Shown in pieces: positions 40,714-45,369 of a stretch of DNA of 64,000 nucleotides. Position 1 is the first letter of the stretch. Each line of letters begins with the position of its first letter. The DNA comes from Spirochaetota bacterium. Its GTDB lineage: Bacteria > Spirochaetota > UBA4802 > UBA5368. The DNA lies in assembly GCA_035477215.1 (NCBI GenBank), contig DATIKU010000018.1, positions 1 through 64,000 on the forward strand, given 5' to 3'. Under the pieces are notes generated by a model. That model worked only from the letters and a program-made list of their open reading frames with translations. It made no database searches and was not told the origin of the DNA. Position numbers and translations under genes: made by a program.

Positions 40714-41041
40714 AACACCAATAACACCAATCCACAGACTACTACCTGCTTTTTAACAAAAAAATGCCACTTATTAACACCTTATGCACTCGAATTCACG
40801 GGCTTATCCTCAACATATCAAGAATACCGTTTTTTTTCGACTTATACTTTTTTTGCTGAATTAATTGGTTGCAAAAATACAAGCTCTAAACTAAAGAAAG
40901 GGCAGCGCGGTGCCAATAGATCTTTCTTTCGTCTTACGTCCGCCGTACGTAACAGAAAAAATTATACAAACATTACTCGAACCATTATTCATTTTATAAA
41001 CAAAGTTATCCACATTTGTTGATAACTGGTGAGTTGTCTTT
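40714..41041. other. oriC: Origin region, left part (DnaA boxes upstream of dnaA)
   Basis: This is AT-rich non-coding DNA. It has a perfect DnaA box TTATCCACA (41006-41014), near-matches TTATGCACT (40782-40790) and TTATCCTCA (40804-40812), and an inverted near-match TGTTGATAA just after the perfect box (~41017-41025). These boxes can serve both replication initiation and dnaA autoregulation. T-rich tracts lie in between. No gene is present. Confidence 0.8.
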
Positions 41042-42376
41042 ATGGTACAGGAAATCTGGGTAAAGGTTCTTTTGTCCGTTCAGTCAAATATCAACAAGCA
41101 GTCTTTTGATATGTGGCTGAAGGACACGGAGCCTGTTTCCCTGTCTAACAACACGCTCAAGGTGAAGGTTCCCGACGAGGTTGCCCGCCGGCACATCTCC
41201 GAGAATTATTCGTCGATGATAGTCGCGGCTCTCGGCGCCATTACCGGGCATAACATGTTCTGCGAGTTCGTCACCGGAAACGGTCGCGCCACTGCGGTAG
41301 ATACACCCGCGCCCGCCGAGCCGTCAAGACCGGTTGAGGGGACCGACTATTCCGCCCAGCGGCTCAATCCGCGCTATACCTTCGAGAACTTTGTCATTGG
41401 ACCGAATAATCAGCTCGCCCACGCTGCCGCAATTTCCGTCTCGCGCGCGCCCGCGACTCAGTACAACCCTCTTTTCATCCACGGCGGCACTGGTCTCGGC
41501 AAAACGCACCTCATGCAGGCGATCGGCCATCACATCCTCAGGGAACGTCCCTATCTTAAAGTGCTGTACGTTCCAAGCGAGGAGTTCGTCAACGAGTTCA
41601 TACAGGCCATCCGTACCAACACGATTACAAGTTTCAAGATCAAGTACCGCAACGTCGATGTCCTCCTCATCGACGATATTCAGTTTATCGAAAAAAAGGA
41701 GCAGACACAGGAGGAGTTCTTTCACACCTTCAATACGCTCCACAACAATAAAAAGCAGATCATCATCTCGAGCGATCGTCCTCCGAAAGATCTTTCCACG
41801 CTCGAAGAGCGGCTTCGCACCCGTTTTGAATGGGGACTGCTCACCGACATTCAGCCTCCCAATCTCGAGACCCGCGAGGCCATTCTCCGCAACAAGGCCG
41901 AGCGCGATAACATGAACATTCCCGACGAGGTGCTCAATTATATTGCACGACGCATCAAGTCGAGTATACGCGCGCTCGAGGCCGCGCTTATCAGGCTCAA
42001 TATGGTGGCCGTCGTTAAAAACGAGCCTATTACAATAGCGCACGCCAAGACACATCTCAAAGACCTTTTCGACGAGGACACGCAGAAAAAGATATCACCG
42101 GCCGATATAATGTCAAAGGTCGCTGAGCGCTTTGAAGTCTCCGTCGAGGACCTCTCCTCAAAGAGCCGCCACAGCCGTGTCGTTCTTCCGCGATTCGTCG
42201 CGATGTATATCTCCCGAAAGATGACAGATCTTACAACTATCGATATAGGCAGGGAATTTGGCGACAGGGACCACAGCACCGTACTCAATGCGATGAACAA
42301 TGTCGAAAAAATGATAAAAGAGGACGAAGAATTCAAGGAGCGCGTCGAGGACATGATAACCGAACTCAAGTGCTGA
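41042..42376 (+). CDS. dnaA: Chromosomal replication initiator DnaA
   Basis: This 444-residue AAA+ protein binds DnaA boxes and melts the origin. Domain I is at residues 1-85 (IWVKVLLSVQSNINKQSF). The ATP site is HGGTGLGKTHLMQAIGHH near residue 145 (Walker A), with VLLIDDIQFI (Walker B) near residue 215. Domain IV with FGDRDHSTVLNA, the DNA-binding signature, is near residue 410. Length is normal. It starts the dnaA-dnaN-recF-dciA-remB-gyrB-gyrA series and is flanked by DnaA boxes on both sides. Confidence 0.98.
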   Translation: MVQEIWVKVLLSVQSNINKQSFDMWLKDTEPVSLSNNTLKVKVPDEVARRHISENYSSMIVAALGAITGHNMFCEFVTGNGRATAVDTPAPAEPSRPVEGTDYSAQRLNPRYTFENFVIGPNNQLAHAAAISVSRAPATQYNPLFIHGGTGLGKTHLMQAIGHHILRERPYLKVLYVPSEEFVNEFIQAIRTNTITSFKIKYRNVDVLLIDDIQFIEKKEQTQEEFFHTFNTLHNNKKQIIISSDRPPKDLSTLEERLRTRFEWGLLTDIQPPNLETREAILRNKAERDNMNIPDEVLNYIARRIKSSIRALEAALIRLNMVAVVKNEPITIAHAKTHLKDLFDEDTQKKISPADIMSKVAERFEVSVEDLSSKSRHSRVVLPRFVAMYISRKMTDLTTIDIGREFGDRDHSTVLNAMNNVEKMIKEDEEFKERVEDMITELKC

Positions 42377-42719
42377 TCTCCCGTTAATATCCTCTTGATA
42401 TCCGGTGGATATCCTTCTTTTTCAGCGGTATAAAATTTTTATTTTATTCTCAGTTGGTATTTATACGATATTTTTTCCTTAACAATCCAATATTCACTTA
42501 TGTCTCATTAAGTTGTTGATTTTATTCACATGTATGCTACGGTGTTAACCGCTGGACATACCAGCAGTTCCGGAGTTATCAACATATCCGGCGATACTAT
42601 TACTACGAAGTATAATTAATAATTAATATGTTTATAACAGTAGTGTTGCAGAACATCTGGATTTCCGGTCTTTCCCGGTTTCTCAACACGGCAACTTTTA
42701 TCAGCGGACGGAGACCGAT
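42377..42719. other. oriC: Origin region, right part, with a DnaA-trio-like unwinding module
   Basis: This is a 343-base AT-rich gap between dnaA and dnaN. It has a perfect DnaA box TTATTCACA (42522-42530) and a one-mismatch box TTATCAACA (42576-42584). The second box is followed by a GC-containing spacer, TATCCGGCGATA. Next comes CTA-TTA-CTA (42597-42605), which reads 3'-GAT-AAT-GAT-5' on the other strand as a DnaA-trio, then AT-rich sequence around 42608-42635. This order matches the basal unwinding system described for Bacillus subtilis. The region also carries the dnaN promoter, which I cannot place firmly. Confidence 0.72.
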
Positions 42720-43841
42720 ATGAATCTTACTGTCGACAAAGATTCCCTCCAGCGGTCGATAATGATCGCCGACTCGATAATATCGAGCAAGAACGTAAAT
42801 ACGATTTTATCGAATTGCCTTTTCAATATTTCAAGGGATTCGGTGGAGATCGTTTCGACCGACAACGAGATAGGTATCCGCACGCGGCTGGACGCGGTCG
42901 CGGACGGAGACATGTCCCTCACCGCCAACGGCAAGCGCTTCGCGAGCATCCTAAAGGAGCTGCCGAAGGGAGAGGTTATCGTCGATGTCAACAATTCATA
43001 TCAGGTCAATATAAAGACCAGGTCGAAGGATATAAAGGCCCGCTATACGCTGGTAGGGACATCGAAGGATGATTATCCAGCAGTCCCGTTTTTCGCTGAA
43101 GAGAATGCCGTGGAGATAAGCCAGAGCGTATTAAAAGACATGCTCAGAAAAGTGATACACGCGGCGGCGATTGACACGATAAAACCGGTTTTCAACGGTG
43201 TGTACATGGTGTCCGAGCAGAAAGGAAAGGTGACCGTGGTAGCGACAGATTCTCGCCGGCTCTCCATGGTGACCAGGACGGTTGAAAACGATGTCCAGCT
43301 CCCCGAGAGTGTGATAATACCGCTGAAAACCGTGAATGAAATAGTGCGTCTTCTCGCCGGCGGCATGTGCAGTTTTTCTTTTTTTGAAAACCAGTGTTTT
43401 TTCAAGATAGGTGAGACGGATCTTATCTCGAGGATAGTTGAGGGGCAGTTTCCGAATTACCGGCAGGTCATTCCGAAAGAACAGAGCATAACCGCGGTTC
43501 TGGAGACAAAGCGCCTGATTGATTCGGTGAGAAGGGCCATGGTTTTTACAAAAGAGCCCGCGAATAAGATCATCCTCACTTTCGGCAAGGAAAGCCTTGT
43601 GGTGGAAGCGAAGACTCCCGATCTCGGCGAATCGAGCGAGGAGATCGCAATGGAATCGAACGCCGGAGACACTCTGCAGGTGGGAATAAACGCACAGTTC
43701 CTGATGGATTCGCTCAAGGAGATGGACGCTTACTCTGTATCGATCGGACTGACCGGGCAGATGAGCCCGGTCACGATTACTCCTGATGGTGACCCTGACT
43801 GCTTTTCGGTTATCATGCCGATCCAGGTAAAATCATCATAG
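42720..43841 (+). CDS. dnaN: DNA polymerase III beta subunit (sliding clamp)
   Basis: This 373-residue protein forms the ring clamp that tethers DNA polymerase III to DNA. It has the three-domain pattern with NLTVDKDSLQRSIMIADSI at the start. Internal strands TVVATDSRRLSMVTR (typical DGHRLA position) and FFKIGETDLISRIVEGQFPNY are visible, and the C-terminus VTITPDGDPDCFSVIMPIQ closes the last domain. Length is normal. GGAG lies before the ATG. It follows the origin gap and precedes recF by 54 bases. Confidence 0.97.
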   Translation: MNLTVDKDSLQRSIMIADSIISSKNVNTILSNCLFNISRDSVEIVSTDNEIGIRTRLDAVADGDMSLTANGKRFASILKELPKGEVIVDVNNSYQVNIKTRSKDIKARYTLVGTSKDDYPAVPFFAEENAVEISQSVLKDMLRKVIHAAAIDTIKPVFNGVYMVSEQKGKVTVVATDSRRLSMVTRTVENDVQLPESVIIPLKTVNEIVRLLAGGMCSFSFFENQCFFKIGETDLISRIVEGQFPNYRQVIPKEQSITAVLETKRLIDSVRRAMVFTKEPANKIILTFGKESLVVEAKTPDLGESSEEIAMESNAGDTLQVGINAQFLMDSLKEMDAYSVSIGLTGQMSPVTITPDGDPDCFSVIMPIQVKSS

Positions 43842-44996: not shown

Positions 44997-45024
44997 AATG
45001 AAATTCAGGGTAAAGGAACCGAGG

Positions 45025-45368
45025 ATGAACAGGCCGACGCGGTTCGGCGTCCTCGTGGAGTCGATAATTGCACAGTTCGGCTTCAGGGACGATTTTCTCG
45101 TTGAGTCCATCCGTTCAAGGTGGGCTTCTGTTGTCGGCGAACTCATCTCGGCGCATAGTTATCCCGACAGGATATTCAGCGGAATTCTTTTTGTGGCTGT
45201 TGATCACTCCGTCTATGGAGGCGAGATATCGATGATGCGTGATTTAATTCTCGCCAAGGTCAGGGACGAATGCGGCGTTCCCGGGCTTCGCGATTTGCGC
45301 GTGGTGGTACGCCGGGACCTCTTCGCGGGGCGGTCGTCGTCCGGAAAAAACGGCGGGGGCAAACGTTG

Positions 45369-45369
<1 letters not shown>
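45025..45369 (+). CDS. dciA: DUF721 (DciA-family) replicative helicase loader
   Basis: This ~114-residue protein of the DUF721/DciA family recruits the replicative helicase in many bacteria that lack DnaC or DnaI. Family features are the N-terminal RFGVLVESIIAQFGF, W in SIRSRWASVVGELISAHSYP, and GILFVAVDHSVYGGEISMMRD. The start at 45025 (MNRPTRFG) has AAGGA seven bases upstream; ATG 44998, one base after the recF stop, is possible. The family often sits in this slot between recF and gyrB. Its stop overlaps the remB start in a TGATG arrangement. Confidence 0.88.

Follow-up and report, generated by a model that had tools for sequence, protein, structure and literature searches.

Where does DnaA first open the chromosome of this uncultured spirochaete, and which sequence elements are gathered around the opening point? 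The window analysed covers the opening 64 kb of a contig of 134,644 bp in a Spirochaetota draft genome of 3.57 Mb and carries the gene order dnaA-dnaN-recF-dciA-gyrB-gyrA, with a 343-bp gap (42377–42719) between dnaA and dnaN (Table 1). Its near relatives are metagenome assemblies such as UBA5368 and UBA2205. A sequence-only reading had described within this gap a DnaA box, a GC spacer, the triplets CTA-TTA-CTA and an AT-rich stretch. Box, spacer, triplets and AT-rich stretch proved correct base for base, and the start of the range noted, 42522, is another strict box, TTATTCACA. The label 'GC' holds only locally: the spacer is 50% GC in the window, AT-rich in other families and not conserved in base content.

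Table 1 Features of the dnaA region of the window
Feature	Positions	Strand	Basis
dnaA, initiator	41042–42376	+	Pfam
dnaN, sliding clamp	42720–43841	+	Pfam
dciA, helicase operator (PF05258)	44998–45369	+	Pfam
DnaA box TTATTAACA, upstream cluster	40771–40779	+	strict match
Weak DnaA box TTATCCTCA, upstream cluster	40804–40812	+	1 mismatch
Three-box array before dnaA	40994–41025	 	TTATAAACA at 40994 (+, 1 mismatch); TTATCCACA at 41006 (+); TTATCAACA at 41017–41025 (-)
Distal DnaA box TTATTCACA, 54 bp before the unwinding box	42522–42530	+	strict match
Dyad AACCGCTGGACATACCAGCAGTT, AA-N3-CTG-N7-CAG-N3-TT, putative dimer-binding site	42547–42569	not applicable	 
Unwinding-module DnaA box TTATCAACA	42576–42584	+	strict match
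12-bp spacer TATCCGGCGATA	42585–42596	+	letters read directly
DnaA-trios CTATTACTA (CTA TTA CTA on +; 3'-GAT-AAT-GAT-5' opposite)	42597–42605	-	 
AT-rich unwinding stretch	42597–42640	not applicable	duplex stability
CGAAGTATAATTAATAATTAATATG, directly after the trios	42606–42630	 	 
Trio-like array facing the first trios (TAACAGTAG here, TAGTAATAATAG in other families)	42635–42643	+	 

The order of these parts had been likened to the basal unwinding system (BUS) known from Bacillus, and the likeness bears comparison with the published definition, which asks for a box with at most two mismatches, a spacer of up to 16 bp and at least three trios of the form 3'-NAN-5' (PMC8287927). The box in the gap, TTATCAACA, has one mismatch to TTATCCACA, the 12-bp spacer lies within the range of 0–16 bp, and GAT-AAT-GAT supplies exactly three contiguous trios, the published minimum. 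A BUS is also expected at a chromosome origin next to AT-rich DNA; the skew minimum lies at 42832, and the least stable 40 bp of the gap begin exactly where the trios do, at 42597, and rank at the 99.98th percentile of the contig. A second, weaker tandem DnaA box accompanies 57% of predicted BUS cases (PMC8287927). The candidate for it in the window, ATATCCGGC at 42584, is very weak, its four mismatches being the permitted limit, and is nearer to consensus in some relatives (for example TTATCAATA in L022). The 3.57-Mb genome contains the composite pattern TTATYMACA-N8-14-YTAYTAYTA a single time, at 42576, as do four congeners, each in the same place; the reversed pattern, used as a control, has none in any of these genomes.

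Strict boxes of the form TTAT[TC][AC]ACA occur five times on the 134,644-bp contig, at 40771, 41006, 41017 (-), 42522 and 42576. All five sit in the two intergenic gaps beside dnaA, three upstream and two in the dnaA-dnaN gap, and none lies elsewhere on that contig. The upstream group that had been proposed as the second half of a split origin is thus present, with box clusters on both sides of dnaA, and it is conserved, its three-box array (40994–41025) being near-invariant across the order. A second unwinding module was sought in the DNA upstream of dnaA in the window and rejected, as no conserved box-spacer-trio order was found there. Also upstream of dnaA, at 40858–40882, is a GAATTAATTGGTTGCAAAAATA-like block that hardly varies within the order and resembles the -35 region of the dnaA promoter. 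GC skew, checked for signs of an origin elsewhere and read on the window's own 134.6-kb contig, that is, on part of the chromosome, changes sign at the gap, with its cumulative minimum 230 bp from the trios. The minima of three other genomes (G008, G016 and G017) fall within about 1 kb of the module. The oriC of Borrelia is likewise placed between dnaA and dnaN (PMC9879097).

Conservation was followed through 46 genomes of the order and is counted over the 32 with a substantial dnaA locus and sequence beyond dnaA; the assemblies of the other 14, including all of family f4, offer no usable dnaA locus. Box, spacer and trios were found in 32 of 32, so that the comparison of relatives that the sequence-only reading had called for shows the trios kept throughout the order. 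The spacer measures 11–12 bp in 28 origins and 13–14 bp in four, which puts the start of the trios about two helical turns from the start of the box. Module boxes carry 0–2 mismatches. Counted from the first CTA or CTG, at least three trios are contiguous in 27 of the 32, and the array is interrupted in five. The distal box stands at -52 to -55 in 27 origins, about five helical turns from the unwinding box. Trio modules were also found in other spirochaete orders (L131, L132) and in other phyla. A TTATGTCNCAT-like block at 42498–42510, at about -75 of the unwinding box, is kept in congeners and in two relocated modules (seen in the window, L041, L032, L024 and L022); TATGTC was rejected as a further universal part, since it occurs in only 13 of 32 origins and at differing positions. 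Loss of dnaA, suggested by absent or weak matches in 15 of 59 relatives, was rejected as well: dnaN is also missing in 14 of the 15, which indicates that those assemblies lack the contig carrying the origin. Both genes are missing from many assemblies of the order (G010, G019, G023, G027 and others, and all four of f4), in which the origin contigs were most likely not binned.

The module lies in the dnaA-dnaN gap in 30 of the 32 genomes and upstream of dnaA in two, which represent two genera of one family. It is found about 0.76 kb upstream of dnaA in G020 (L032, G020:C97:11006) and about 2.3 kb upstream in G011 (L041, G011:C77:2060), in each case beyond a PC4-family gene. The relocated copies keep the layout of dyad, box, trios and AT-rich stretch, with a clear distal box in G011, and the dnaA-dnaN gaps of both genomes contain no strict box, trios or dyad. 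Skew minima, read on short contigs, lie 2–3 kb from the module in these genera. In the window a PC4-family gene (PF02229; 37984–38244, -) is likewise situated upstream of dnaA and divergent from it, an arrangement shared by nine of the ten loci of the order that were inspected. In G020 such a gene adjoins the relocated module; its product is a candidate origin-linked single-stranded-DNA-binding protein.

Two other readings of the conserved gap were weighed against these results. The block immediately precedes dnaN, a gene that may be under DnaA regulation in Borrelia as it is in Bacillus (PMC9879097), so that the block could be the promoter and leader region of dnaN with incidental trios; yet in G011 and G020 the module is upstream of dnaA and away from dnaN, the gap left behind has lost strict boxes, trios and dyad, and skew and duplex instability point to an origin, all of which makes a dnaN leader very improbable. 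It is even less probable that the working unwinding site is the upstream box cluster (40771–41025), with the gap as a regulatory DnaA site only. That cluster has more boxes, is very conserved and finds a parallel in the two genera with a trio module upstream of dnaA, but it lacks a conserved box-spacer-trio order, the skew minimum falls on the gap side, and the least stable duplex within the gap begins at the gap's own trios. The single genome match, the skew minimum, the boxes flanking dnaA, the instability and the order-wide module together give the reading as a BUS within a split origin good support at the level of sequence. We are therefore highly confident that the chromosomal origin is split and that the gap is its unwinding half, with a BUS of the Bacillus kind, and the module in the gap is very probably the place where DnaA is predicted to open the chromosome first. 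The lines of evidence obtained span sequence, position, uniqueness, conservation, skew, duplex instability and conserved DnaA contact residues.

The last of these come from the initiator itself, which can be aligned over its length to B. subtilis DnaA as seen in 8btg, the structure of a BUS complex. The residues reported to hold trio bases in B. subtilis DnaA are Asn187, Ile190, Ile193, Arg202 and Glu228 (PMC10721633); in the alignment to 8btg, N187, I190, I193 and E228 are identical and R202 is replaced by Lys, leaving four of five unchanged. A DnaD/DnaB_2 protein (PF07261), which a second loading system of the DnaD/DRE type would need, was found in none of the 46 genomes of the order and was detected in the B. 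subtilis and L. lactis controls. This absence, together with dciA in the cluster, makes delivery of the helicase by a DciA-type route likely. DnaA would bind the box at 42576, helped by the distal box at 42522 and by the cluster before dnaA, and a filament of ATP-DnaA would cross the 12-bp spacer onto the bottom-strand trios and capture their bases. By homology, the AT-rich DNA would open rightward, towards dnaN, and the helicase would then be loaded, with DciA rather than DnaD as its likely partner.

Between the distal box and the unwinding box, 6 bp before the latter, lies a dyad that has not been described previously and is conserved across the order. Its core, CTG-N7-CAG, is exact in 22 of 32 origins (0.1 expected from dinucleotide shuffles) and ranks top among 64 triplets at 13 spacings, and AA and TT flank it in nearly all 32. 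It always stands at -24 or -25 relative to the unwinding box, a spacing fixed to 1 bp. Searched as one pattern, box plus dyad occurs 20 times in the 46 genomes, 17 of these at the origin, and the control pattern not at all. In the relocated modules of G011 and G020 the half-sites read GCG-N7-CGC and CCG-N7-CGG in the same place, with symmetry kept and letters changed. The dyad is absent from all ten of the best trio-module cases in other phyla, and Rfam returned no match for it or for the dispersed repeat described below. The half-sites are 10 bp apart, one helical turn, and the arms do not pair continuously: the middle pairs are unpaired in 13, 19 and 21 of the 32 origins, counts on which a perfect hairpin, and with it the continuous pairing that marks a terminator, was rejected. 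A dimeric protein fits this combination of spacing and pairing better than a hairpin does, and the chances are slightly better than even that the dyad is a site for a dimeric protein that bends, bridges or gates the five-turn interval.

Dyads of the same form also occur away from the origin. In whole-genome searches AA-N3-CTGR-N5-YCAG-N3-TT outnumbered its reversed control in many genomes (6 versus 1 in G000, 23 versus 0 in G001 and 59 versus 1 in G010), an excess that the control overstates because palindromes in general are often over-represented; the stretches inspected for context were chosen around matches and are not an unbiased sample. Among nine loci tested, seven have such a dyad 3–11 bp from the 3' end of a tRNA gene (L157, L165, L166, L173, L174, L176 and L180), terminator-like with a T-run in some and not in others. 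In G000, G001 and G010 the dyad forms the core of a dispersed repeat of about 140 bp with three inverted repeats (GGGAACCTCTAAAAATTAAATTTTTGAGGTTCCC ... AACTACTGGCATACTCAGGACTT ... GCCCGCCGAAGGCGGGC ... TTATTAGAGGTT), the centre of which matches the origin dyad. Copies number at least three in the window's genome and dozens in G010 (L161 at about 1460–1590; L159, L162 and L155; the G010 stretches L183–L202). The dyad is therefore not exclusive to the origin: the copies elsewhere could be further classes of site for a single protein, or a widespread type of hairpin that keeps reappearing.

At the end of the AT-rich stretch away from the first trios, TAGTAATAATAG-like triplets on the top strand would present trios to DnaA coming from the other side. 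In a sample of about one genome per genus, this facing array scores 64.5, a value never reached in 500 dinucleotide shuffles (24.7 ± 9.6), and the forward strand of the same stretch scores 4.5 against 5.9 in shuffles. Weaker than the first trios, the array occurs in most families; it stands out clearly in f2, f5, f6 and some members of f1, is weak in f7, and in the window is both short and weak. Since no DnaA box leads into it in the window, it is not a mirrored complete module. The array may help to place the second helicase. In a deltaproteobacterial dnaA-dnaN gap (L102, 4493–4570), two trio arrays face each other perfectly (CTACTACTACTTCTT ... AATAGTAGTAGG).

For each of the two added elements a more ordinary explanation was weighed. 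The dyad could belong to the dnaA transcript, as an RNA hairpin or a terminator with no part in the origin, in keeping with its position downstream of dnaA in 30 of the 32 genomes and with the similar dyads, some with a T-run, that follow tRNA 3' ends. No T-run follows the dyad at the window's origin, however, its three middle base pairs fail in many species, its distance from the DnaA box is fixed to within one base pair, and a dyad of the same geometry with altered half-sites sits with the module on the upstream side of dnaA in G011 and G020, so that we consider a hairpin or terminator of this kind unlikely. Whether one protein or a common hairpin form underlies the dispersed copies, the fixed distance and the joint relocation argue for a role of the dyad at the origin. 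The facing array stands at even chances of being merely AT-rich sequence that runs into the ribosome-binding site: it is weak in the window and absent or degenerate in f7, where TAG merges with AGGAGG, whereas its score is above that of all 500 shuffles, the forward strand has no such excess, and the array is present in relocated modules that do not adjoin dnaN.

In B. subtilis the BUS of oriC consists of tandem DnaA boxes, a spacer and the DnaA-trios CTACTATTACTTCTACTA. The spirochaete module resembles it in its gap, orientation, order of parts, box-to-trio spacing, trio letters and DnaA contact residues. It differs in having one strong box and no tandem pair, only three trios in the window species, the dyad and the distal box 54 bp upstream as fixed parts, and an order without the DnaD family (DnaB_2, PF07261). 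As in the split origins of B. subtilis and Helicobacter pylori, two box clusters flank dnaA and one holds the unwinding site, but two genera of this order have the unwinding cluster on the opposite side of dnaA. The oriC of E. coli has an IHF site between two DnaA boxes. The dyad, as a putative protein site between two boxes, recalls that arrangement and could conceivably have an architectural role; unlike the IHF site, it is symmetric. The DnaD recognition element of B. subtilis lies on the strand opposite the trios and has been proposed to place the second helicase (PMC10201434). Here, too, the unwinding region may hold a second layer of information, although the candidate is a facing trio-like array rather than TnnT repeats read by DnaD, which is absent. 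In Thermotoga maritima, DnaA binding requires TAG repeats (eTrio) within the unwinding stretch (PMC10316083). The spirochaete shares TAG repeats in the unwinding stretch, which in T. maritima are read by DnaA, but there the essential repeats belong to the array beside the boxes, whereas here the second set faces the first.

At its most far-reaching, and rather improbably, the region would be a movable origin cassette of fixed geometry, comprising the distal box, a dyad whose dedicated dimeric protein couples the boxes over five turns, the unwinding box with its trios, and a further trio array assigning the second helicase its strand in bacteria without DnaD. In one lineage such a cassette would have changed sides, from downstream of dnaA to upstream, and remained functional. 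The natural relocation shows which parts travel together as a unit. The dyad, the facing array and the relocation were absent from the sequence-only reading, which was right as far as it went. The core opening signal is the known Bacillus-type one, to which the order-wide dyad and a fixed geometry around the signal are added, and the Bacillus-type opening system, including its spacing, is thereby extended to a little-studied order of spirochaetes. The added parts matter most: an undescribed conserved site beside the opening point and, possibly, a sequence signal for the second helicase where DnaD is absent, a question raised in PMC10201434.
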